Made by a program: the position numbers and the translations under genes
The notes under the pieces: generated by a model
Database searches by the model: none
What the model saw: the letters and a program-made list of their open reading frames with translations, nothing else
Told to the model about the DNA's origin: nothing
In this document: positions 4,857 through 42,063 of the stretch, piece after piece
How the letters are laid out: every line of letters starts with the position of its first letter
How positions within the stretch are numbered: the stretch's first letter is position 1
Assembly (NCBI GenBank): GCA_026645935.1
Contig: JAPKMP010000002.1
Location: 186,001 to 250,000, forward strand
Direction of reading: 5' to 3'
DNA: 64,000 nt
Origin: Candidatus Villigracilaceae bacterium
Lineage (GTDB): Bacteria; Chloroflexota; Anaerolineae; Anaerolineales; Villigracilaceae

Positions 4857-6182
4857 ATGGTCAACTTCTCCACTTCCCGCGATTTCGCCTTTCAACTCGA
4901 TGCCAAGGATAAACTTGCCTCATTCAAAGAGGCGTTTGTCATTCCAGACCCAAGCCTCGTCTACTTTGACGGCAACTCGCTTGGCATGATGCCCAAAATA
5001 GCACAGGAAAAATCGCGCCAAATTGTAGATGAGCAATGGGGCAAGGATCTCATCCGCGGCTGGAACAAAGGCTGGTGGGAAGCCCCAGCCCGCGTGGGGG
5101 ATAAGATCGGCGGCTTGATTGGAGCCGCGCCTGGTCAAACCCTCGTCAGCGATACCGTCTCGGTCAATCTCTTCAAACTTGCCACTTCCGCGCTTACATT
5201 GCAATCGAACAAGACCCGCGTCATCACAGATACTTTCAACTTCCCATCCGATCTTTATATTTTACAGGGCATCAATAATTTACTATCCTCCTCACCCCGC
5301 CTTCGGCACCCCTCTCCCATCGGGAGAGGGGACGGGGGTGAGGGCTACGAGATCATCCGCATCGGCGCAACTGATAGCGACATAACGCCAGACCTTTCCG
5401 CGCTCGAATCCGCCATCGACGAAAACACCGCGCTTGTCACGCTCTCGCACGTTGTTTTCAAAAGCGGTTACATCTATGACATGCGGCGCATTACCGACCT
5501 TGCCCACAAAAAAGGCGCGCTTGTCCTATGGGACCTCAGCCACTCCGTCGGCTCCGTGCCCGTCCATCTCGACGATTGCAACGCAGACTTCGCCATCGGC
5601 TGCACCTACAAATATCTTAACGGCGGTCCCGGCGCGCCCGCATTCCTTTACGTCAATAAAAAAATCCAGGAAAAATTATCGTCGCCCATCTGGGGATGGT
5701 GGGGTCAAAAAAATCCCTTCGACTTCGATCTTGAATACACCCCCGCCCCCGGCGCGCAGCGTTTCATGGTCGGCACCCAACCGATGATCTCATTACTCAC
5801 CATGGAAGCCGCCCTCGAACCGATTCTTCAAGCAGGCATGGATTCACTCCGCGAAAAATCCATCCTGATGACGGACTTCGCCTCTTTCTTAACCGGGGCT
5901 TGGCTTGTCCCCTTCGGTTTTTCATTAGGCTCGCCAGTTGACCCTGCCATCCGCGGATCGCACCTCTCCATCCGCCACCCCGAAGGCTACCGCATCAACC
6001 GCGCCCTCATCGAAGAGATGAACGTCATCCCCGACTTCCGCGCGCCCGATAATCTTCGCCTCGGCTTTGCCCCGCTTTATCTTTCATTTGCGGATGTGTG
6101 GGAAGGCTTTGACCGAATCCGCCGTGTGATGGAGGAAAAGCGTTACGAGAAATATCCCCTACAAAAATTGACGGTGACGTAG
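4857..6182 (+). CDS. kynU: Kynureninase
   Basis: A 441-residue PLP enzyme of aminotransferase fold type I that cleaves kynurenine to anthranilate and alanine. Family marks are VYFDGNSLGMMP at the substrate site, WDLSHSVGSVP, and GCTYKYLNGGPGAPAFLYV with the Schiff-base lysine in YKYLN. The C-terminal NLRLGFAPLYLSFADVW is also typical. Residues about 145-163 (SPRLRHPSPIGRGDGGEG) do not belong to the family; they are encoded by a palindromic repeat inserted in-frame between a helix and the EIIRI strand. No tryptophan dioxygenase or formamidase gene lies beside it, so the pathway context is not visible here. The gene has its own -10 box and stands alone. Confidence 0.93.
   Translation: MVNFSTSRDFAFQLDAKDKLASFKEAFVIPDPSLVYFDGNSLGMMPKIAQEKSRQIVDEQWGKDLIRGWNKGWWEAPARVGDKIGGLIGAAPGQTLVSDTVSVNLFKLATSALTLQSNKTRVITDTFNFPSDLYILQGINNLLSSSPRLRHPSPIGRGDGGEGYEIIRIGATDSDITPDLSALESAIDENTALVTLSHVVFKSGYIYDMRRITDLAHKKGALVLWDLSHSVGSVPVHLDDCNADFAIGCTYKYLNGGPGAPAFLYVNKKIQEKLSSPIWGWWGQKNPFDFDLEYTPAPGAQRFMVGTQPMISLLTMEAALEPILQAGMDSLREKSILMTDFASFLTGAWLVPFGFSLGSPVDPAIRGSHLSIRHPEGYRINRALIEEMNVIPDFRAPDNLRLGFAPLYLSFADVWEGFDRIRRVMEEKRYEKYPLQKLTVT
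5290..5344. repeat. Palindromic CCTCACCCC repeat inside kynU
   Basis: A 55-bp copy of the CCTCACCCC...GGGGTGAGGG family with inner arms CCCCTCTCCC / GGGAGAGGGG. It is translated in-frame as part of kynureninase. Confidence 0.85.
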
Positions 6183-29773: not shown

Positions 29774-30942
29774 CGGATTGGACGATCTGGGTTGAATGGG
29801 TGGTGAAGGGTTTTATCCTGTGCATGATCCTGTTGACAGGATTTGCCTATTTGACCTTGTACGAACGCCGCGCGCTTGCGCGCATTCAGGTGCGCGTGGG
29901 ACCGAACCGGGCGGGTCCGCAGGGATTGTTGCAGCCCATCGCGGACGCGGTGAAGTTGATCTTCAAGGAAGAGTTGACGCCGGGCAAGGTCTATAAAGTT
30001 GTATTTTTACTTGCGCCCGTATTGACGGTGGTGCCTTCATTGGTCCTCGCTGCGGTCATTCCGTTGGGCGATAAATTTATGCTGTTCGGGCGTGAGATCA
30101 CGCTCTATGTTGCGGACTTGAACGTGGGCGTTCTGTATTTGATGTCAATCGCTTCCATTGCCGTCTACGGCATCGTTCTTGCCGGATGGTCGAGCAATAA
30201 CAAGTATGCGATGCTGGGCGGCATCCGTTCTTCGGCGCAGATGATCTCGTATGAACTTTCCTTGGGTTTGTGCTTTGTTATCGCCATCATTCTCGGGAAT
30301 TCGATGAACCTGAACGAGATCGTGGACGCCCAAAGGGATATGTGGTTCGCAGTGATCCAGCCTGCGGGCGCGCTGGTCTTCATGGTCGTGACTCTCGCCG
30401 AAGTGAACCGCGCCCCGTTCGACATGCCGGAAGCCGAGCAGGAATTGACCGCCGGTTATCACGCGGAATATTCGGGCATGAAGTTCGCCCTGTTCTTCAT
30501 GGCGGAATACCAGAAGATGATCGTCATCTGCATGATCGCGGCGACCCTGTTCTTCGGCGGGTATCGCGAGTTCTGGTTCCTGAAGGATACCTTCTTCAGC
30601 GTCGACTCCGTCTGGACTATCGGGTCATGGCAGTTCAAAGCCTGGTTCCTCGGACCGATCTATATGTTGTTGAAAGTTATCGTTCTTCTCTTCTTTATGA
30701 TATGGATTCGCGCCACCTGGCCCCGCATCCGCTACGACCGGTTGATGGCGTTCGGCTGGAAGGTGCTTTTGCCGTTGTGCCTTGTGCTGGCTTTCATCAC
30801 CGCGGTTGGAATTCTGCTTTTCGATCTGTTGGGCAACCCGATGCTTATCTGGGGAGTGCCTGTTCTTTCGATGCTTTGTATTTTAGTGGTGGTCGCATTC
30901 ATTTACCGCGATCTGAGGAGAAAATCCCATGGGCGTGTTTGA
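29770..30942 (+). CDS. nuoH: NADH-quinone oxidoreductase subunit H
   Basis: A 390-residue membrane subunit, about eight to nine segments. It carries [20 protein letters not shown] and the acidic loop [20 protein letters not shown] that lines the quinone entrance. It joins the peripheral arm to the proton-pumping arm. It overlaps nuoG by four bases and nuoI by fourteen. Confidence 0.96.
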
Positions 30943-31450
30943 TCCCATTATCGAACTTTCAAAGGGATTGGGCGAGACCCTGCGCTCCTTCCTGACGGAG
31001 AAGACGGTTACCTACCAGTACCCCGAAGAGAAGCGACCTGTCCGGCCGCGCTTCCGCGGACGCCACGTCTTGAAGCGCTACGACAACGGCTTGGAGAAAT
31101 GCATCGGCTGTTCGCTCTGCGCCGCCGCCTGCCCTGCGGATGCGATCTTCGTGGAAGCCTCGGAGAACACCGACGATAAACGCTTCTCGCCCGGTGAAAG
31201 ATACGCCTCGACCTACGAGATCAATATGCTGCGCTGCATCTATTGCGGGTTCTGCGAGGATGCATGCCCGACCGAGGCGATCGTGCTGGGCGATAACTAC
31301 GAGCTTTCGTTCACCAGCCGCGAACAGGCGATCTATGGCAAGGATATGCTGCTGGAGCCGGTCGCATCGGAGAATATGCTTACGCCGCGTAAGGTAGAGG
31401 TTGGCATTTATACCCGTTCAGTGCCGGAAATGCAGGATCCCAGAGATTAA
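30929..31450 (+). CDS. nuoI: NADH-quinone oxidoreductase subunit I
   Basis: A 173-residue ferredoxin-like subunit with two [4Fe-4S] clusters (N6a, N6b): [12 protein letters not shown] and [12 protein letters not shown], each with the usual CxxCxxCxxxCP spacing. A short amphipathic N-terminus docks it to NuoH. In an uninterrupted operon nuoJ would follow, but here 7.5 kb of unrelated genes begin 26 bases after the stop, with no terminator between. Confidence 0.96.
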
Positions 31451-31476
31451 ATTCTATATCTAAGGAGGATTATTCA

Positions 31477-34400
31477 ATGAGACATAATTATTTTTTCAGA
31501 TGGCTCGCGGTGGTATTTATAATAACCATCTTTGTTTCGTTTGCCCTTATGTCCCCTTCGGCGTCAGCCCAAGAGGGAAATCCTCCTGTACCAACAGATA
31601 CGCCTACAGAAATCTCAACAGAAGAACCTGGGTTTTATCCCACTATTGTTCCGACGCCGACTGTGCCGTTGGAAATCACCCCTGATGATGCCCAACCATT
31701 CAGTATGCAGGGTTTTGAAGAGTCTGTTCCTCAAAGCGCTACTGGTTGGTCGCTCCCCGAGAATATATCATTATCTGTATCCGCTTCAATCAATCCAGAC
31801 ATTTCGATTGCCCCAAATGGAAGTGTGCATATCGTATGGGTGGAGGTGGAAGGCGGACACTCAGATGTTGTTTATAAATATCGAGACGAGTTGGGGGTAT
31901 GGTCTCCTGTTATCAATGCATCTGACAGCGGTTCGTTCAATGCTGGCACACCTCAGATCATAACTGACAGCAATAACACGGCGCATATTGTATGGTCGGA
32001 GGATGACTTTAATAACTCGGAGATCATGTACACCCGATGCTCCGATGGCTCTTGCCTTCCTGCCGTCAATTTATCGGGACCCGCCAACTGGGATTGCGGA
32101 AAATACCCGCCCAACCTGTGGGATTGGAAAAGCGAATTCCCCACTATTGGGATAGATCAGTCAAACCAAATCATGGTCTTATGGCGGGCATATGAACCCA
32201 ATGAGATTACAATGCCTTACAGCACCTGGGAAATGACAGGTTCCCCGCCCGCAACACCCTCAGGATGCATCCCTTACCATCCGGATATCCCCAAGCATGT
32301 AATAGGAGCGGCGCAGGTCGCCGGAAGGGGAGAACGCGATTTCCGGCTGGTCTATGAAGAACTGCCGGACGGCGGACTTCCCGGAATCTACTACGGCATT
32401 TACAGCGACAATTCTTTCACGAAATGGACGACTTCCCTTCTGGGAAACGGCGATTGGCCGGATATCTACTTGAAAGATATCAATCCTGTACATGCAACCT
32501 GGTGCGGATCGGACGGATTGGCAAAATATTGGAATAGCGACGCTTCTGTTGAGTCCATTTCAGACGCTTTGTGTGGGGCGCGGGTTTCGGTTGGAGTTGA
32601 TTCGGTTGAGTTGCCGCATATCTTCTCGAACCACAATTCGCAGATTTACGAAAACATTCGATACCCCGAGGGATGGTCGAGCGGTGTGAGTGTTTCTCGA
32701 ACTCCCAATGGCGCTGCCCAGCAGGATGTTGCTGTGGATGCAATTGGGAATTTGCACCTGGTATGGCTGGATGGCAGGGATGGGAATTATGAAATATATT
32801 ATTCATCAACTGCTACATATGATTGTTCTGGCGTTTCACTATCTCCAATTGCTCAGGCAGTTTTTGATGTAATAAAAGAATCTGAACCTACCCAAGAATT
32901 TTGTGGCAACAAGTTTGACGACCTTATAATTTTGCCTCCTGGTGAGCCTGCATTTCAAAGATTTCACGATTTAGCAGTTGAAGCTAAGTACGAAGTTAAT
33001 TTCACAACTATGTTTTGGGATAAACAATCAGGTCAAGAAGATGGTGTTGGATATATTTTTCTTAGGGGTATTAAAGAGTTATACCAAAAAGTTCAACAAA
33101 ATCCAGAGAATTTCCCAGTAGATGGAGTCCATGTAAGAATTCTTGTTGGAGTGAAAAGATATATTTCTAATAATCCAGATCAGAGAATATACATATTGAG
33201 GGACATGGAAAATCTTGATATCCCTGTTGAAGATAATAAATGGAGAGTTGAAGTAGCCGTTTATAGAGAAGGAGATAGTGATCCAACAGGAACTGGACTA
33301 TTTGGTACACATAGTCATGTAAAACTTATGATAGTAGATGGAAAAACTGTAATAGCAAGCGGTTATAACATGCAAGATGATTATCTTGAAGATTCCCGTC
33401 AAGACATGGGGGTAGAGGTCAATGGACCTATTGCGATTCGCTCCTTAATGGTTTTTGATGAATTATGGAAAGGGGCTTCTCGTTGTGATGAATACATCCC
33501 AAACCAATGTGGACAAGAAACAACCGTAGAAAACATAACTCATAATCCAGAAATTCTTTATCCAATTGTAATAGGTGGAGATACTGTTTTCTCACTTTTC
33601 AGAGATAAAACAAATAAGTTGGCTGACGATGCAATTGCATCGGCTATTAATGAGGCAAGTAGTAATGTTAATATAATCCAGAATCGTTTTATGAATGATT
33701 TTTGGAATCCGCCACAATACGCAGAATCTATATTAAATGTTCTTAATAAAGGTGAAGGGCAGGTGATAGTAAATCTCTTAGTTTCGGGTTCAGATGGAGT
33801 ACGCCCCTTAGATGATTTAGAATTAAGTACTGCTGGTATATGTCAACTTTGGGATCAACTTTATTATGAAACTCCAATAGGAACATATAATTTTACAGCA
33901 AGATATTCTAGTCAAGAAAAGCCAATTCACACTAAAGCACTTTCACTTGATGGATATTTTACTATTGTAGGAAGCCAAAATTTTGACCCAAGTGCTTGGG
34001 GTGAAAATACCACTGGTTCTTATGAAGAACTTGGCGATTTAGCAGAATATAGTCTAGGTATTGATAGTGTTCAAGTTGCCCAAGAATTTAATTCTGAATT
34101 TAATGAAGAATTTTCTTTGGAAAATGGAACCCAGAATATTACATGCCCCTATAACACATTTTCTCCTACATCCTTACAAAGTGTAATTGACCAGACAGCT
34201 TCAGGGTCAGTAGTATTTATTCCTGCTGGAGTATATACAGAATCTGTAACGATCAACAAACCTTTAACACTAATTGGAGCAAACCCAAGTCAAACTATCA
34301 TTCAACCTGTAGGAAACGAACCAACCTTTCGGATCACTTCCAGTGACGTAACCATTGCAAATATGAAAATCAAGGGCGGAGATGGTTATGGAATTGAATT

Positions 34401-35808
34401 GATAGATAGTTCACCAAGCAGCCTTAAGAATATCCTAATTTATCGAATTGTCTTTGAAGAAAATGAGCAAGGGGGTGTACTGGTGCAAGGTTTAATCCCA
34501 GGAAGCCCTATGAATTACACCATCGAAAATAGCACATTCATTGGTGGCGGGAGCGGCATTACGATTAACATGCTTGAAGTTCAGGCTGAGAAATCCTTGA
34601 TTCGTAACAATATCTTTTATAGCCAACTTCGTTTCCCGATTGAAATCCTTTCGGAAACTGACAGCCATGTTGAATATAGTTTCAATTTGTTTGATAACTG
34701 TGATTTAGGTTCTTGTATTACATACTGGCGCGATACCGAAGGCGGAGTTCTTAGCCCATTATCAAGCCAGAATGACAATTTATTTGACCTGGGCCCGCGT
34801 TTTATAAGTGCTGGTGATGGGGCATATCAATTATCTACTACTTCCCCCGCGATTGATGCTGGCGACCCAAGCATGTTCCATGAACTATATTTCGATGGGA
34901 ATGGTGATGAAGAAATACGAATTGATATTGGAGCATTTGAATACGCACCATTCACAAACCTTCCCCCTGTTGTGACTGCCAATGCAGACCAATCTATTGA
35001 ACTTGGAAGCCCTGTTACTATCAACACAACTTATACAGATGAAGACAATATCGAAGACCACACTTCCCAAATTTCTTGGGGGGATGGTGTGGTCGAAAAT
35101 ATCGCTGTCAATAGCACTGCGCCAAAACAGGGTGAAGTCATCGGTACACATACTTATACAGATATAGGGTCGTACACTGTGGAAATTTGTGTAGTTGATC
35201 TGCATGGGGGAGTAGGTTGTGACACCATGCAGATCAATGTAAACCTGTCTTCCGTTCCTGTCAATTTCTACCTACATGGCAGTGGCGCAAATGCAAACCC
35301 TGCCACTTTGTATTTGAATACAACTGCTCCTACTGGGACAACCGCAAAATACAAAGATTCGACCAGCATCAATTTCAACAATGGCAACCCATGGAAAGAT
35401 GTTGGCGCTTGGATATTAGAACCAGAACAAATTAGTGGAGAACTGACAGATATTAATAACTTACAGGTCTGGCTTGGATTAAAAAATAGTGACGACCAAG
35501 GCACGAATTTTGATTTACGCGTTGAACTTTATAGGAATGATATATTGATAGGGTCAAATGAGGAATTATGCATCACTGGTATCACACGCAATGCGAATTT
35601 AGCCAAGTTGGTGACTTTATCCGTTGAAGACTTGATGCCTGCTGACTTTGATGGTGTGACGGATATACTCTCGTTGAAAATAAAAACGAGAATAGGCACA
35701 AATGATTTAGGCGGGATGTGCGGCGGCCATAGCAATGCAGTGGGTTTGCGTTTGTATTTTGATGCGTCCAACCGTCCTTCCAGCTTTGAGAGTATGATTG
35801 CACCGTAA
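31477..35808 (+). CDS. Giant exported protein: propeller-like repeats, two HKD (phospholipase D) motifs, beta-helix, PKD
   Basis: A 1443-residue protein inside the nuo operon. Residues 1-32 are a signal peptide (FALMSPSASAQ), followed by a Pro/Thr-rich linker. Residues 90-440 contain sialidase/BNR-like repeats (ISIAPNGSVHIVWVEVEGG and AIGNLHLVWLDGRDGNYEIYY). Residues 470-885 form a PLD-type domain with two HKD motifs, HVKLMIVDG near 614 and HTKALSLDGYF near 818, each followed by an SGYN/GSQNFD block. Residues 895-1150 look like a right-handed beta-helix (VVFIPAGVYTESVTINKPL) ending IDIGAFEY. Residues 1162-1255 are PKD-like (HTYTDIGSYTVEICVVD). No C-terminal anchor seen. Codons 1-445 are mixed-GC and the rest strongly AT-rich. 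AAGGAGG precedes the ATG. Role unknown; a secreted phosphodiesterase/lipase is the best guess. Confidence 0.75.
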   Translation: MRHNYFFRWLAVVFIITIFVSFALMSPSASAQEGNPPVPTDTPTEISTEEPGFYPTIVPTPTVPLEITPDDAQPFSMQGFEESVPQSATGWSLPENISLSVSASINPDISIAPNGSVHIVWVEVEGGHSDVVYKYRDELGVWSPVINASDSGSFNAGTPQIITDSNNTAHIVWSEDDFNNSEIMYTRCSDGSCLPAVNLSGPANWDCGKYPPNLWDWKSEFPTIGIDQSNQIMVLWRAYEPNEITMPYSTWEMTGSPPATPSGCIPYHPDIPKHVIGAAQVAGRGERDFRLVYEELPDGGLPGIYYGIYSDNSFTKWTTSLLGNGDWPDIYLKDINPVHATWCGSDGLAKYWNSDASVESISDALCGARVSVGVDSVELPHIFSNHNSQIYENIRYPEGWSSGVSVSRTPNGAAQQDVAVDAIGNLHLVWLDGRDGNYEIYYSSTATYDCSGVSLSPIAQAVFDVIKESEPTQEFCGNKFDDLIILPPGEPAFQRFHDLAVEAKYEVNFTTMFWDKQSGQEDGVGYIFLRGIKELYQKVQQNPENFPVDGVHVRILVGVKRYISNNPDQRIYILRDMENLDIPVEDNKWRVEVAVYREGDSDPTGTGLFGTHSHVKLMIVDGKTVIASGYNMQDDYLEDSRQDMGVEVNGPIAIRSLMVFDELWKGASRCDEYIPNQCGQETTVENITHNPEILYPIVIGGDTVFSLFRDKTNKLADDAIASAINEASSNVNIIQNRFMNDFWNPPQYAESILNVLNKGEGQVIVNLLVSGSDGVRPLDDLELSTAGICQLWDQLYYETPIGTYNFTARYSSQEKPIHTKALSLDGYFTIVGSQNFDPSAWGENTTGSYEELGDLAEYSLGIDSVQVAQEFNSEFNEEFSLENGTQNITCPYNTFSPTSLQSVIDQTASGSVVFIPAGVYTESVTINKPLTLIGANPSQTIIQPVGNEPTFRITSSDVTIANMKIKGGDGYGIELIDSSPSSLKNILIYRIVFEENEQGGVLVQGLIPGSPMNYTIENSTFIGGGSGITINMLEVQAEKSLIRNNIFYSQLRFPIEILSETDSHVEYSFNLFDNCDLGSCITYWRDTEGGVLSPLSSQNDNLFDLGPRFISAGDGAYQLSTTSPAIDAGDPSMFHELYFDGNGDEEIRIDIGAFEYAPFTNLPPVVTANADQSIELGSPVTINTTYTDEDNIEDHTSQISWGDGVVENIAVNSTAPKQGEVIGTHTYTDIGSYTVEICVVDLHGGVGCDTMQINVNLSSVPVNFYLHGSGANANPATLYLNTTAPTGTTAKYKDSTSINFNNGNPWKDVGAWILEPEQISGELTDINNLQVWLGLKNSDDQGTNFDLRVELYRNDILIGSNEELCITGITRNANLAKLVTLSVEDLMPADFDGVTDILSLKIKTRIGTNDLGGMCGGHSNAVGLRLYFDASNRPSSFESMIAP

Positions 35809-35822
35809 TAAAACCCATTTGA

Positions 35823-35860
35823 GTTCAGCCTAACTGAAAGAAATTATGGTTAGGCTGAAC
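35823..35860. repeat. 12-bp inverted repeat before the paralogue array
   Basis: GTTCAGCCTAAC at 35823-35834 and GTTAGGCTGAAC at 35849-35860 are perfect inverse copies with a 14-nt loop. There is no T-run afterwards, so it may modulate rather than terminate transcription from the large gene into the three paralogues. Confidence 0.6.
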
Positions 35861-35874
35861 CTAATAAAAGCAAT

Positions 35875-36909
35875 ATGGATAATAAGATTTTCGAGACACC
35901 TCGATACACAAAAAATAATCCTTCGCCAAAACAACGAATATACCGATTGGGAGTTCGTCTTGTTATCTTGCTTGGGGTGTTATTTGTAGTTTATTATGGC
36001 TATTGTTGGGGCTGGTGGGGGAAAAATAGTTTGTTATTACAATACATTTTTCAATGTGGGTGTCTAATATCTAGTAATGAATCTCGTTACCCAGACAGTA
36101 TTGATGTGATTATTCCTGCTTGTGAACATGATTCTATCCTCCTATCGCCAAGCGGACGGTTATTGTATATAGACAATTATATATTCTGGAATAACTTTAG
36201 TTACTTCCTAAACATAGAAACAGGCGAAAAAACTCAATATAGACTACCGGGTGCACCTAAGTATTTTCTTACTGATAATTTCATGTTTTATCAATATGAT
36301 GAATATATTTTCGATCGCGTAACTAGCAAAAAGTATCCAATAACAAAATTTGAAAATTGGCGCCCCGAAGCATATACAAATGGAATAACAAATCTAGACT
36401 TATTATCTGAATCTCTACAAAATGCTAAGCAGGTTTTTTTAGTTAGCAATGAGGCTGTAGTTGCCATATCGAATGACTTTACTGTATATCCTGAAAATAA
36501 TTTCTTTATCAACCGTTCTGGTTTTCCTGGGAATGATACAAATCGTATCGAACAATTCCTCAAAGAGAATAATATTGAATATATATTTATTCCAGAGAAA
36601 TATTCTCATGAAACAAAGTCATCAAATGGCAGATTTATTGCCCGTGATGATGGAATTTATTTATCTGAAACTGAACAAAAAATTGTGGAGGGTTTTTCTC
36701 CAACAGGAGAATATCGCCCAGCAAGCGGTAAATATTTTTGGGTAGTTGGATGGGCTTATAATGGCAGTGCAGCAATGTATTCCAAAAAAGAAGAAGTTTG
36801 TTTAATTGAAATGAATATATTTGTAAGTGATGTCTGTATCTTCAGAGTTCCCCAACCTGTTTTGCTACTCAAAGTACCGCAAGAGTATTTGGATGGAACG
36901 ATACCCTAA
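35875..36909 (+). CDS. Unrecognised membrane-anchored Trp/Cys-rich protein, paralogue 1
   Basis: A 344-residue protein of a family I do not recognise, with two close relatives right after it. A basic N-terminus is followed by one membrane segment (RLVILLGVLFVVYYGYC), then the striking YCWGWWG motif and LLLQYIFQCGC. Shared features of the outside part are RYPDSIDV, a Cys before SPSGRLLYID, YFLTDNF, RFIARDDGIYLS, GWAYNGS, and the ending LKVPQEYLDG. The repeated short strands (SPSGR..LY, NGRFIARDDGIYL) suggest a beta-propeller-like fold. Four Cys conserved in all three copies could form disulfides. AT-rich. Its stop abuts the next ATG. Confidence 0.65.
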   Translation: MDNKIFETPRYTKNNPSPKQRIYRLGVRLVILLGVLFVVYYGYCWGWWGKNSLLLQYIFQCGCLISSNESRYPDSIDVIIPACEHDSILLSPSGRLLYIDNYIFWNNFSYFLNIETGEKTQYRLPGAPKYFLTDNFMFYQYDEYIFDRVTSKKYPITKFENWRPEAYTNGITNLDLLSESLQNAKQVFLVSNEAVVAISNDFTVYPENNFFINRSGFPGNDTNRIEQFLKENNIEYIFIPEKYSHETKSSNGRFIARDDGIYLSETEQKIVEGFSPTGEYRPASGKYFWVVGWAYNGSAAMYSKKEEVCLIEMNIFVSDVCIFRVPQPVLLLKVPQEYLDGTIP

Positions 36910-37920
36910 ATGGAAACCTTGACAAAGCATTTCACCCCCACAGTCAAACGACCAAGACTTAACCATAAGTTAAGCTTTGGTATCCTTGTATTGGGCGGTG
37001 GAACTTTCCTAGCATATTATGGCTATTGTTGGGGCTGGTGGGGTAGAAGTAGTTTACTATTGCAATACCTTTTTCAATGCAAGTGTCCGCCAATCAGCGC
37101 TGAATTTCGTTATCCTGAGCAAATTGATGTAATCCTCACTGCTTGTCAACATGATACATTTATTATGTCGCCAAGCGGGCGGTTTTTGTATGTAGAAAAA
37201 AGAGAAACAGAGAACAATGTTGGATATTTTTGGAATTTACAAACAAATGAAAGAATCCCATATACAATTCCTGATGGAGACAGATATTTCTTAACCGATG
37301 ATTTGCTTTTTCTTAGGACAGATTATGGTAAGGGAGTTGAAGGCGGAGAACACATTTTAGACCGCACAATTGGGGTGCTGTATCCTCTTCGAAATATTGA
37401 CACTTATACTGAAAGTGAAGCAAATGTTAGCCGTATGCTTGAAAAGCTAAGAAATGCACAAAAGGTTTTTTATATTAGAAGTTATGGAGTTATTGTGATT
37501 GAGGAAAATTTTCAAGTTTTTCCTGATCGTAACTTTATTATTTATTATGATATTCCTGGAAAAGACCCCGATTCAAAAGAAAAGTTCTTACAATACAACA
37601 GTGTGCCTTATATTCAAATTCCTCGTTTAGCATACTCTTTAGGCGAGGATGTATCTCCTAATGACAGGTTTCTTGCGAGGGATGATGGAATTTATCTGTC
37701 TGCATCGAATAAAAAAATAGTTGATGTTAATAATATGAGCTCCTCTCTTTATGGCTGGGTATATGACAGTACGGGCGCAATTTATGCTAAACCATTTGGG
37801 AGTTGCTTAATTCGATATTGGTTTCCGCTCATGGATGGGTCGAATTGTCTTATACGAGTGCCTCAGCCAATTTTGAAACTAAAAGTTCCGCAAGAATACC
37901 TGGATGGAACGACGCCCTAA
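36910..37920 (+). CDS. Unrecognised membrane-anchored Trp/Cys-rich protein, paralogue 2
   Basis: A 336-residue paralogue of the preceding protein. It is closest to the third copy: the start RPRLNHKLSFGILVLGGGTF, the YYGYCWGWWG segment, FQCKCP, HDTFIMSPSGRFLYVEKRE and YGKGVEGGEHILDRT are nearly repeated there. The start codon follows the stop of paralogue 1 with no base between, and its own stop abuts paralogue 3, so the three are translated as a chain. Differences cluster in the middle (residues 150-230), suggesting a variable exposed face. Function unknown. Confidence 0.65.
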   Translation: METLTKHFTPTVKRPRLNHKLSFGILVLGGGTFLAYYGYCWGWWGRSSLLLQYLFQCKCPPISAEFRYPEQIDVILTACQHDTFIMSPSGRFLYVEKRETENNVGYFWNLQTNERIPYTIPDGDRYFLTDDLLFLRTDYGKGVEGGEHILDRTIGVLYPLRNIDTYTESEANVSRMLEKLRNAQKVFYIRSYGVIVIEENFQVFPDRNFIIYYDIPGKDPDSKEKFLQYNSVPYIQIPRLAYSLGEDVSPNDRFLARDDGIYLSASNKKIVDVNNMSSSLYGWVYDSTGAIYAKPFGSCLIRYWFPLMDGSNCLIRVPQPILKLKVPQEYLDGTTP

Positions 37921-38952
37921 ATGAAAGCCTTGATAAAGCATTCTACCCCCTCATTCAAACGACCGAGACTTAACCGTAAGTTAGGTTTTGGTATTCTTGT
38001 GTTGAGCGGTGGAACTTTCCTGGCATATTACGGCTATTGTTGGGGTTGGTGGGGAAGACAAAGTTTGCTGTTGCAATACCTTTTTCAATGCCGTTGCCCA
38101 TCTGCCAGTATTGAATCGCGATATCCTGAATATATAGATGTATTACTTTCTGCTTGCCAATATGATATTTTTATTATGTCGCCGAGCGGGCGGTTTTTGT
38201 ATGTAGAAAAAAGAAAAACAGAAAACGATGCTGGTTATTTCTGGAATTTGCAAACTGGCGAAAAATATCCGTACACGATCCCTGATGGACGCAGCTACTT
38301 TTTAACTGACGATTTACTTTTTCTTAGAGTGGATTATGGTAAGGGAGTTGAAGGCGGAGAATACATCTTGGACCGCCAGACTGGAACTCAATACCCTATT
38401 AAGCACCTTGACACATATGAGATGAATACTGAGGTGCTAATCGAAAAATTATTAGCGTCTAGTAGTGTCTTTTTAATAGACGAGTTTTGGCTTATAGCAA
38501 TCGCTGAGAATTTTCAATCATTTCCTGAAATGAATTTTTTTACTAACCCGGATGTCTTCACAAATGAGATTTATAAAACGGCTGAGGAATTTTTACAGGA
38601 TAAAAACATAACGTATACCCAAATTCCTTATCTGGCATTCGACATAGATGAGGTCAAGTCTCCAGATGGAAATTTTATTGCCCGCGGCGACGGTATTTAT
38701 CTAGCTGAAACAAACCAAAAAATTATCGAGAGCTACAACGGTTTGGAAACTTATACCCCGTATAGTGGTAAAAATTTTTCAGTATATGGCTGGGCCTATG
38801 ACGGTTCTGGGGTTATATATTCTAAGCCTTTTGGGCTGTGTCTTTTTGAATACGAGTTTCTGTTCATGGATGGTTCGGAATGTGTAGTAAATGTGCATCC
38901 GCCCGTATTGAAACTCAAAGTGCCGCAGGAGTACTTAAATGCAAATAATTGA
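37921..38952 (+). CDS. Unrecognised membrane-anchored Trp/Cys-rich protein, paralogue 3
   Basis: A 343-residue third copy, very like paralogue 2 over the N-terminal 140 residues (RPRLNRKLGFGILVLSGGTF, YYGYCWGWWGRQSLLLQYLF). It diverges in the centre but keeps NFIARGDGIYLAE, YGWAYDGSG and LKVPQEYLNANN at the end. The last gene of the insert. The 79-bp gap to nuoJ is AT-rich and shows no terminator, so transcription can continue into the second half of the nuo operon. Confidence 0.65.
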   Translation: MKALIKHSTPSFKRPRLNRKLGFGILVLSGGTFLAYYGYCWGWWGRQSLLLQYLFQCRCPSASIESRYPEYIDVLLSACQYDIFIMSPSGRFLYVEKRKTENDAGYFWNLQTGEKYPYTIPDGRSYFLTDDLLFLRVDYGKGVEGGEYILDRQTGTQYPIKHLDTYEMNTEVLIEKLLASSSVFLIDEFWLIAIAENFQSFPEMNFFTNPDVFTNEIYKTAEEFLQDKNITYTQIPYLAFDIDEVKSPDGNFIARGDGIYLAETNQKIIESYNGLETYTPYSGKNFSVYGWAYDGSGVIYSKPFGLCLFEYEFLFMDGSECVVNVHPPVLKLKVPQEYLNANN

Positions 38953-39031
38953 CAAGTACTTTCTGTTCTTAAAAATTAAGGATCATGCTTTTGTTTACTC
39001 AAAACCACATATATAATTGCAAGGCTAACTC

Positions 39032-39556
39032 ATGAACACAGAATTGATTGTCTTCCTCGTCCTTTCCCTCGTCGCCATCGTGACCGCGATAGTCATGCTG
39101 TTGCACCGCAACCCCGTCTACTCAGCGTTATTCCTCGTGCTAAACTTCATCGCGGTGGCTGTGTTCTACCTGCTGCTGGGTGCCCCGTTCATTGCGATGG
39201 CGCAGATCACGGTCTATGCCGGTGCCATCATGGTGCTGTTCCTATTCGTGATTATGCTCTTGGGCGCGGAACGGCTTCCCGACGCCAAGGTCCTGCGCTT
39301 GCAAAGACCGCTGGCGTACGGGCTGGCAATCGTCCTCGCAGCGGAGACGATCTATCTCCTCTTCACAAAAGCCGGTTCGAATTTGGTTGTCACTACCCCG
39401 GATGCATCTCTCAATACGATGGAAAGCCTGCGCGAAATTGCGATGGAATTGTTCAATCGGTTCCTCCTCCCGTTCGAGGTGACCTCCATCCTCCTGCTGG
39501 TGGCGATGATCGGCGCCATCGTGCTGTCAAAGAGAGAGAAAGGGGAGCCGAAATAA
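39032..39556 (+). CDS. nuoJ: NADH-quinone oxidoreductase subunit J
   Basis: A 174-residue membrane subunit with five segments. The [31 protein letters not shown] stretch (split here: [20 protein letters not shown]) holds the pi-bulge segment 3 typical of NuoJ. It resumes the complex I operon after the inserted genes; composition returns to GC-rich at its start. The stop overlaps the nuoK ATG (TAATG). Confidence 0.95.
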
Positions 39557-39858: not shown

Positions 39859-39912
39859 GTAAAACGGGATGCGTAATTCGCGGATCACGCATCACGGATT
39901 ACGGAGAATGTC

Positions 39913-42063
39913 ATGCACTTAATTGAAACGATGAACACAGGATTTTTCTTCCTTGCCCCATGGCTGGTGCTTGCGCCAGTGATCGGTCTGCTCGTCAATG
40001 CCGTTTTTGGAAGGCAATTATCCGAAAAATGGATCGGCGCGGTGGCAAGCCTTGCATCCGGCACGGCATTCGTCGTCTCGGTCTTGCTGGCATATTCGGT
40101 GGCGGTCAATCACGGTCATGCTGTCAGTGTTCCCTTCGCGGAGTGGATTCACATTGGCGACCTCAAACTCGATTGGACCTTCCGCGTCGACTCGCTTTCG
40201 ACGACGATGATGCTGGTTGTTTCGGGCGTCGGGACTCTCATTCACATCTACGCCATCGGATACATGCATGAGGACGTGCGTTTCAAGCATCAGGAGGGAC
40301 GCTTCGCCCGCTTCTTTATTTTCTTGAACCTGTTCATCGCTGCGATGATGATCCTCGTCTCGGGCGATTCCTATTTAATGCTCTTCGTTGGCTGGGAGGG
40401 CGTGGGTCTCTGTTCTTTTCTGCTGATCGGTTTCTGGTTCGAAATGGACACCCTTGCCCGTCCCTCCTGGGCGAATTCGGACGCCGCGAAAAAAGCCTTC
40501 ATCACCAACCGCGTGGGTGACTTCGGTTTCCTCATCGCCGGTTTTTTGATGTTTTGGTATCTCGGAAGAAGTTTCCAGTTCGACGATGTCTTCGCCGCCG
40601 CGCCCGCGATTGCAGAAACTCAACGATGGGTGATCATCGCAATAACACTCTTCATGCTTCTTGGCGTGGCGGGGAAATCGGCTCAGATCCCGCTCTATGT
40701 CTGGCTGCCAGATGCGATGGCGGGTCCAACTCCTGTCTCGGCTCTCATCCATGCCGCGACGATGGTGACCGCGGGCGTTTATCTTGTGGCGCGCTCGGCT
40801 CCGATTTATACGCTTGTCCCTGAAGCGCAATATATCGTGGCGATGGTCGGTGCGATGACCGCGCTCTTTGCCGCGACGATTGCGGTCGGTCAGTACGATA
40901 TCAAGAAAGTGCTGGCGTATTCCACCATTTCACAGCTTGGTTTCATGGTCGCCGCGGTGGGGATGGGCGCATTCGTGGCGGGAATGTTCCACCTCGTTAC
41001 CCACGCTTTCTTCAAGGCTCTGCTCTTCCTTTCTGCGGGTTCGGTCATCCTCGGCTTGGAACGCGGGCATCACGCTCATGCCCATCATGCTCATCATGAG
41101 GAGAGACATAAGGTAAGAGGAAAGAGGAAAGAGGAAAGAGAGCATGAGGAACATAAAGAAGTCTTCGATCCCGGCGATATGCGCAACATGGGCGGACTCC
41201 GCAAGACCATGCCGGTCACATTCTGGCTTTATATGATCGGCACACTTGCGTTGGCGGGAATCTTCCCCTTCGCGGGCTTCTGGTCGAAGGATGAAATCCT
41301 GCTCGATGCGAACCTGCATTACACCAGCGTCTATTGGCAATTAACGATCGCCGCTTTCTTTACAGCATTCTACATGGGCAGGCAGATTTGGATGGTCTTC
41401 TTCGGCGAGGCGCGCAGCGACGCCGCCAAGTCTGCGCAGGAAAGCCCGAAGGTAATGACCGTGCCTCTCATGGTGCTGGCAGGTCTCAGCGTAGTTGGAG
41501 GCGCGTTAAATCTTCCATTCGAAGGGTTCCATCACCTAGGTCACTGGCTGGGATATACGCTGGGCGAAGTCGAAGGTCTTCCTCTCAATTTACAAGTTGC
41601 CGGTATTTCCACGGTTCTGGCGTTGCTTGCCATTTTTATCTCATGGCTGATCTACGGCCGCAATCCGTTGAAGGATCACCAATCCGATCCGCTCAAACGC
41701 CCGCTAGGCTTTGTCTTCACCGGCATGGAAAATAAATGGTTCGTGGACGAAGGCTATGGCGTGTTGATCATCACGCCCTTCAAAAAACTTTCGCAGTTCC
41801 TCGCCGAGGTGATCGATTGGCGTTTCTGGCACGACTTTGTGCATGACACTGTGATTGCCGGGACGTACAACTGGCTGAGCGAAGTCGTCCTCAACCGTTA
41901 CGCCGACCAGAAGGGCATCGATACCTTCTTCAATAGTTGGGGCTCTTTCACGCAATGGCTCTCCGGCAATGTTCGTAAAATCCAAAATGGCTTCGTCCGC
42001 TCGTATGCGCTTTCGGTGCTGTTGGGCGTTGTATTGATTTTGGGTTACCTGATTTTGAAATAA
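39913..42063 (+). CDS. nuoL: NADH-quinone oxidoreductase subunit L
   Basis: A 716-residue antiporter-like subunit at the tip of the membrane arm. It has FVGWEGVGLCSFLLIGFW, PLYVWLPDAMAGPTPVSALIHAATMVTAG (split motif) and a C-terminal lateral helix region (residues 560-600). Residues about 385-418 are an unusual His-rich then charged insert (GHHAHAHHAHHEERHK, then KRKEEREHEEHKE), encoded partly by a GAGGAAA tandem repeat at 41113-41140. GGAG stands eight bases before the ATG. The 54-bp gap after nuoK is a degenerate GATGCGTAATTC-type repeat. Confidence 0.95.
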   Translation: MHLIETMNTGFFFLAPWLVLAPVIGLLVNAVFGRQLSEKWIGAVASLASGTAFVVSVLLAYSVAVNHGHAVSVPFAEWIHIGDLKLDWTFRVDSLSTTMMLVVSGVGTLIHIYAIGYMHEDVRFKHQEGRFARFFIFLNLFIAAMMILVSGDSYLMLFVGWEGVGLCSFLLIGFWFEMDTLARPSWANSDAAKKAFITNRVGDFGFLIAGFLMFWYLGRSFQFDDVFAAAPAIAETQRWVIIAITLFMLLGVAGKSAQIPLYVWLPDAMAGPTPVSALIHAATMVTAGVYLVARSAPIYTLVPEAQYIVAMVGAMTALFAATIAVGQYDIKKVLAYSTISQLGFMVAAVGMGAFVAGMFHLVTHAFFKALLFLSAGSVILGLERGHHAHAHHAHHEERHKVRGKRKEEREHEEHKEVFDPGDMRNMGGLRKTMPVTFWLYMIGTLALAGIFPFAGFWSKDEILLDANLHYTSVYWQLTIAAFFTAFYMGRQIWMVFFGEARSDAAKSAQESPKVMTVPLMVLAGLSVVGGALNLPFEGFHHLGHWLGYTLGEVEGLPLNLQVAGISTVLALLAIFISWLIYGRNPLKDHQSDPLKRPLGFVFTGMENKWFVDEGYGVLIITPFKKLSQFLAEVIDWRFWHDFVHDTVIAGTYNWLSEVVLNRYADQKGIDTFFNSWGSFTQWLSGNVRKIQNGFVRSYALSVLLGVVLILGYLILK
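41113..41140. repeat. GAGGAAA tandem repeat inside nuoL
   Basis: GTAAGAGGAAAGAGGAAAGA and one further unit: about three and a half 7-base copies, in-frame, coding part of the charged insert. Confidence 0.7.

Follow-up and report, generated by a model that had tools for sequence, protein, structure and literature searches.

Operons encoding respiratory complexes are generally regarded as conserved units. In the 64,000-nucleotide stretch of a Candidatus Villigracilaceae genome analysed here (the window, G000:C22:186001-250000, where G000 is the genome bearing the index insert), the complex I (nuo) operon is complete, and the open reading frames (ORFs) and Pfam matches (nuoA-F and nuoK-N, together with nuoG-J) place all 14 genes, nuoA to nuoN, in order on the forward strand, as a first-pass annotation of the same letters had reported. 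That annotation also described nuoI and nuoJ as split by a giant secreted protein with phospholipase D (PLD), beta-helix and PKD modules and by three tandem membrane-anchored paralogues, and this description holds (31477-38952). Between the nuoI stop codon at 31450 and the nuoJ start at 39032 lie 7,581 base pairs (bp) with four same-strand genes for exported or membrane proteins.

On the left, nuoI (30929-31450) ends in a divergent tract (~30951-31450) that was probably imported, and a short spacer (31451-31476) places the ribosome-binding site AAGGAGG 5' of the first ATG of the insert. The first gene (31477-35808) encodes a predicted exported, modular PLD-type protein of 1,443 amino acids, assigned from Pfam, an alignment of its HKD motifs and its predicted fold. 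A hairpin with a 14-bp stem and no T tract (35823-35860; -20.3 kcal/mol, z -5.5) separates it from three genes for membrane-anchored, beta-propeller-like paralogues: the first (35875-36909; 344 amino acids, with a conserved YYGYCWGWWG segment) and the second (36910-37920; 336 amino acids) were characterized by sequence comparison, and the third (37921-38952; 343 amino acids) was modelled with AlphaFold2. The right spacer (38953-39031), judged by folding and by the spacers of relatives, lacks the hairpin type found in those relatives, and it leads into nuoJ (39032-39556), the start of which differs from that of the sister genome G032. All of these features are on the forward strand.

The base composition of the insert was described beforehand as mostly AT-rich, which is accurate for most of its length: over ~32.5-39.0 kb the G+C content is 35-42%, well below the ~53-58% of the flanking nuo genes, while the insert's initial ~1 kb stands at ~50%. 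The shared direction of the four genes and the strong ribosome-binding site at the start were likewise borne out. The absence of a terminator also stands, in that a scan of the region found 10 terminator-like sites (5.5 expected), of which all six on the forward strand lie within genes and none at a gene boundary, but the strong hairpin at 35823-35860 had gone unmentioned. The same strand and the short spacers fit the expectation of that annotation that the insert would be co-transcribed with the complex I genes, although this hairpin stands within it. Spacers between co-directional nuo genes, namely those between nuoI and nuoJ of same-genus genomes (L024-L051) and one at 39868-39905 of the window, are hypervariable in sequence and made up of short, self-complementary words; 15 of the 25 tested fold with z < -2.

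The giant gave Pfam matches to PLDc_2 (E 5e-15), Beta_helix (E 3.9e-6) and PKD_4 (E 4.5e-7). By eye it begins with a signal and a Thr/Pro linker, followed by an all-beta N-terminal module (N-module; residues ~70-445), the PLD domain (~445-880), a beta-helix (~900-1160), a PKD domain and a C-terminal domain. The residues of two HxKx4D (HKD) motifs (H171, K173 and D178; H375, K377 and D382, numbered as in the aligned fragment) do not vary among the six aligned sequences. A model of residues 70-900 (predicted local distance difference test score, pLDDT, 80.1) consists of the all-beta module and a two-lobed PLD domain, for which Foldseek returned a Streptomyces PLD as best match (E 3.4e-17; TM-score on the target 0.61), with PLD3-type nucleases (the PLD3 exonuclease) also matching. 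On the strength of both HKD motifs and the modelled PLD fold, we assign the predicted protein to the phospholipase D superfamily; its substrate may be phospholipid. It shares its predicted fold, two HKD motifs and a secretion signal with the Streptomyces-type secreted phospholipases D (PDB 1f0i, 2ze9 and 7jrb), but here the PLD domain sits inside a 1,443-residue protein with an all-beta module, a beta-helix and a PKD domain, and identity is 15-18%.

Relatives of some part of the giant (E 1e-10) occur in at least 21 of the 301 genomes of the order, G000 counted and four of them through the PKD region alone; this is a lower bound, as the search scored at most two candidates per genome. A scan of named genomes with the whole giant gave no match, and the same scan with the PLD alignment gave 15 loci, four of which are contigs of G283, G204, G025 and G005. 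In the ten others (the 15 minus those four and L280) there was no propeller match and no nuo gene adjoining the PLD gene, although the broader surroundings of three of the ten held weak nuoG-like matches (24-27%). The wider PLD family is thus mostly unlinked to nuo genes or propellers. One record labelled candidate division KSB1 (L274, 7709-12433) carries a 1,574-residue PLD relative at 39% identity, by distant transfer or by misbinning.

The three paralogues are 45-62% identical to one another and matched no Pfam family at E 1 and no NCBIfam family at E 0.01. The model of the third (pLDDT 79.9) has a helix at residues 17-41 and is otherwise mostly beta; its structural neighbours are mostly beta-propellers, but with Z no higher than 7.4 and a Foldseek TM-score of ~0.2. 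From this model, the paralogues are probably proteins with one N-terminal helix and a beta-propeller outer domain, and they are called propellers below. Outside the window we inspected 28 propeller loci, of which L156 gave no match; 27 of the 28 belong to the 30 known from the family, and one does not. A gene for an exported protein adjoins the propeller gene in 12 of the 28 (by eye; in L130 through a PKD-region match only), the gene order varies, and several of the 12 exported-protein genes are short ORFs with little beyond signal and linker. In two species, tandem propeller genes lie immediately upstream of recA (L120, 88-3103, in G030, with a Pfam RecA match; L131, 12629-14267, in G025).

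Comparison with relatives indicates how long the insert has been in place. The sister genome G032 is 97.4% identical to the window over 11.2 kb to the left and 6.2 kb to the right of the insert, yet its nuoI-nuoJ spacer is 65 bp, the insert is absent and no paralogue match was found in the genome at E 0.001. The spacers of the 27 same-genus genomes listed are 6-131 bp long. More widely, nuoJ was matched in 134 genomes of the family, and we collected nuoJ-centred stretches from 99 of these (many of them already in the spacer listing), plus G032, G236 and G000. Of the 105 loci analysed, seven had no nuoI-nuoJ gap and were left out, giving 98 genomes, including G032 and 46 of the same genus. The gap is at most 225 bp in 97 of the 98; the exception, G333, has 1,012 bp with an unrelated ORF of 305 amino acids (L209, 8525-9442). 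The insert was found in none of the 98, and a divergent nuoI tract abuts it in the window. That the insert is a recent arrival in the nuoI-nuoJ junction, one of two possibilities raised by the first-pass annotation, is therefore well supported. An ancient insert that was lost in all relatives would have to have been lost in G032 and in the 97 others, and it is very improbable, even if the related cassette that fills this junction in a second genus (described below) is what such a history would leave: the two inserts match in the N-module only, and neither their catalytic domains nor their partner genes are the same. Other ORFs also occur within nuo operons, namely a DUF2268 zinc-protease-like ORF between nuoK and nuoL (L221, 8575-9432, in G204) and a Phd/YefM antitoxin ORF between nuoJ and nuoK (L258, 9571-9837, in G113).

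The flanking genes carry possible traces of recombination, examined in one genome pair, G000 and G032. Identity to G032 is ~98% up to position 30950 and then drops: in the nuoI tract at 30951-31450, 64 of 500 positions differ (12.8%), against 63 of 2,951 upstream (2.1%; Fisher P 1e-22), and the tract contains the lowest of 541 sliding windows to the left of the insert. Up to 31390, third codon positions hold 39 of the 43 differences within nuoI. To the right of the insert, differences affect 10 of the opening 21 nuoJ nucleotides, then 46 of the 1,237 positions as far as 40290 and none of the next 1,560 (40291-41850). Perfect identity over such a segment, in an operon that otherwise differs by ~2-4% or more, is in all appearance mosaic recombination. 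The divergence of the nuoI tract suggests that this part of nuoI and the insert were imported together by homologous recombination.

Integron gene cassettes and transposons also place cassette-like units at repeated sites, as is seen here. However, Pfam and NCBIfam searches of the insert matched neither an integrase nor a transposase, and the ends seen in related cassettes are gene scraps. Among the repeat families listed, the insert ends have only short, chance-like repeats, with no convincing target duplication or inverted terminal repeats. We therefore do not class the insert as a transposon or integron. Searches of mobile-element pools gave no match in viral contigs (queried with the PLD alignment), in plasmids (query P0004 only) or in phages (query P0001 only). 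The gene comEC is present in G000, but it is common, occurring in 10 of 14 controls.

The same junction is filled in a genome of another genus (G236, genus g30). There the start of an exported-protein gene lies 27 nucleotides after the nuoI stop, and the contig ends inside this gene; the final 121 nucleotides of this contig are identical to the first 121 of contig C24, and C24 runs through an exported LCAT protein, a transmembrane ORF and then nuoJ, K, L, M and N. The exported protein has an N-module 47% identical to residues 70-445 of the giant, but carries an LCAT-type lipase in place of the PLD domain; by sequence match the inserts of G000 and G236 have only the N-module in common. With the PLD cassette of G000, the LCAT cassette of G236 and the 305-residue ORF of G333, the cargo at nuoI/nuoJ differs from case to case, and the site looks like a recurrent dock, to judge by these sequences. 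The filled junction also bears on the possibility of an assembly artefact. G000 is a draft of 70 contigs, but both flanks of the insert are 97% identical to one relative, the genes are intact and an independent genome is occupied at the same place, which leaves an artefact scarcely credible.

The 121-mer also ends a further G236 contig, C34, directly after an acsB gene (Pfam ACS_CODH_B_C/CdhC); a second copy is therefore probably present in the acetyl-CoA synthase (acs) operon of G236. In that genome, a lipoprotein-like ORF of 209 amino acids and an exported ORF of 933 (Amidase_6) lie between CooS-like and acsB genes (L116, 4764-8223), and relatives of the former, at 40-45%, adjoin propellers in G121.

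Fragments of genes at cassette ends connect the two operons. A CBS-type gene precedes acsD/CdhD in G357, G000, G032 and G309 (by eye, with Pfam matches to CBS and CdhD for G357; G321 was left out). In G236, contig C24 has a 39-nucleotide copy of the start of this gene, 92% identical to that of G357, directly before the nuoJ leader, and further copies of the fragment lie in the acs loci of G236 (one) and G204 (two; genus g27). The acs locus of G204 has, 3' of a PLD and propeller cassette, the CBS scar, the nuoJ leader with ~30 nuoJ codons, a fragment of the nuoI 3' end and then the remnant of an LCAT-type exported protein. These nuo fragments resemble other genera more than their own genome: the nuoJ fragment is 82% identical to G236 over 123 nucleotides and 84% to G344 over 92, against 79% over 53 to the G204 nuoJ, and the nuoI fragment is 88-91% identical to G105 and G281 over 44-49 nucleotides, against 74% over 47 to the G204 nuoI. 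Taken with the G236 scar, this shows that cassettes have travelled from one of these two operons to the other and across lineages, a movement that these fragments record for G236 and G204 and not for G000. The G204 nuoJ and nuoI fragments meet at a short stretch common to both genes (by eye), which fits an illegitimate step. A palindrome of the AGACCTGACATG...CATGTCAGGTCT type stands directly after the CBS-start fragments in two genera (L306, ~315-400; L118, ~5590-5690) and is perhaps a small mobile repeat.

Further cassettes occur at other sites. In the second, divergent nuo operon of G005 a PLD giant lies just upstream of nuoM, and in the second nuo operon of G283 there are 4.6 kb between nuoL and nuoM, with a propeller remnant and an exported protein of 1,284 amino acids. 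In G341 a partial propeller gene sits beside NrfD and iron-sulphur protein genes, which we take to belong to an alternative complex III. Related cassettes thus occur at nuoI/nuoJ in another genus, beside nuoM of second nuo operons and in the acs operon. The first-pass annotation had offered two alternatives, that the insert arrived recently or that it profits from the expression of nuo; the former stands, but with related cassettes elsewhere the dichotomy was too narrow. Of 35 cassette loci compiled by hand in the family (31 with a propeller match), nuo operons hold four, or three of 34 without the index window, and most of the loci examined are elsewhere.

These counts can be set against a one-off event, in which chance illegitimate recombination placed the insert, its location would be meaningless and the other cassettes in nuo operons would be coincidental. 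The majority of examined propeller loci lie outside energy operons, as such chance would have it, and unrelated ORFs interrupt nuo operons too (L209, L221 and L258). Nevertheless, a homologous cassette occupies the identical junction in another genus, acs and nuo operons carry reciprocal scars, and three of 34 loci in nuo operons is more than expected if these offer an assumed 0.67-1.5% of sites (P 0.0015-0.014, post hoc). We regard a one-off event as decidedly unlikely.

Another account is positional selection, whereby an exported system gains from being transcribed with the complex I or acetyl-CoA synthase operon and such insertions are retained. It has in its favour the common strand, the strong ribosome-binding site, the short spacers and the presence of cassettes in nuo and acs operons, as well as the partial propeller gene near the NrfD and iron-sulphur protein genes. 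It is weakened by the several exported-protein genes in the genus that end soon after signal and linker, and by the hairpin within the insert, which may uncouple expression. On balance we find it somewhat doubtful as the explanation, and it is compatible with docking at conserved operon genes.

A third account concerns function. The giant could be a polymorphic toxin directed at relatives, with the three tandem propellers as immunity proteins. Polymorphic toxin systems (Zhang et al., 2012; PMC3482391), in the portion of that study considered here, likewise combine a modular exported protein and a swapped catalytic domain with small partner genes, sometimes in tandem. In a few cases the cassettes share the N-module or the C-terminal part while PLD and LCAT domains are exchanged, and tandem, variable partner genes adjoin the exported gene. 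However, no known delivery, peptidase or immunity family was matched, the partners are membrane-anchored and probably propellers, the genes come in varying order, and no exported gene stands beside the propeller in 15 of the 27 loci with a propeller match. A search for defence families gave a weak DrmC match only. We therefore judge a toxin-immunity role unlikely.

We consider it probable that the insert is an accessory cassette, recently arrived at nuoI/nuoJ, of a family that varies in its catalytic domain (PLD or LCAT-type lipase) and is found in other energy operons of related genera. The cassette was most likely imported by double homologous recombination in the conserved genes on either side; the donor, to judge from the divergent nuoI tract, was probably an unsampled relative that already had the insert at this junction. 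The enzyme would be made whenever the energy operon is expressed and may act on phospholipids outside the cell, in scavenging or antagonism, with the propellers either anchoring it or protecting against it. More tentatively, and at somewhat less than even odds, we propose previously undescribed nomadic cassettes, in which exported lipid-active enzymes and membrane-anchored propellers dock in energy-operon junctions (nuoI/nuoJ, nuoL/nuoM of second operons and acsB/CBS), move between operons and genera by recombination in flanking genes, retain fragments of former docks and are shielded from deletion by the operon that the cell needs.

Several observations weigh against these proposals. A second divergent patch, at ~43.3-44.0 kb, has no insert, and divergent tracts alone therefore do not prove import. 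The donor of the nuoI tract was not found, G032 still being closest (89%) among the 48 matching genomes of 57 in the genus, G000 included. No scar of another operon's genes was seen at the window's own insert boundaries. In G236, the path from nuoI to nuoJ crosses the 121-nucleotide contig overlap, which C34 shares, and C24 could follow either contig. The nuoI-nuoJ gap is not the one widened most often: 35 nuo gaps exceed 350 bp, of which 12 are nuoE-nuoF, nine nuoF-nuoG, nine nuoL-nuoM, two nuoM-nuoN and one each nuoI-nuoJ, nuoJ-nuoK and nuoK-nuoL, mostly below 700 bp, and nearly all of the 34 outside nuoI-nuoJ are shorter than 1 kb. Furthermore, the enrichment in nuo operons was calculated post hoc, and the genomes compared are mostly drafts.

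Among the publications listed by the literature searches, none was seen to describe exported genes within Chloroflexota nuo operons. In the part drawn on here of PMC3150298, the one paper to combine nuoI, nuoJ and Chloroflexi, Chloroflexus aurantiacus has one ordered and one loosely arranged nuo cluster. A close parallel is with horizontal-transfer hotspots that lack mobile elements, for which recombination at flanking core genes was proposed as the driver (Oliveira et al., 2017; PMC5635113). As far as the relevant part of that study goes, the likeness lies in cargo that varies while the two core genes around it stay the same, in the lack of a recognisable mobile element and in possible signs of recombination in the flank; the difference is that the dock here is within a conserved energy operon, and that cassettes take pieces of one operon along into a different one, across genus boundaries.

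If this interpretation is right, accessory genes enter respiratory operons repeatedly, at the same joints and without a recognisable mobile element, and some cassette ends record former sites. With the scars, transfer from operon to operon and from genus to genus could then be followed directly in the poorly cultured Anaerolineae, and the idea that conserved operons serve as docks for homologous recombination becomes testable. Finally, the cassettes point to a family of predicted exported phospholipase-type enzymes with as yet unnamed membrane partners.

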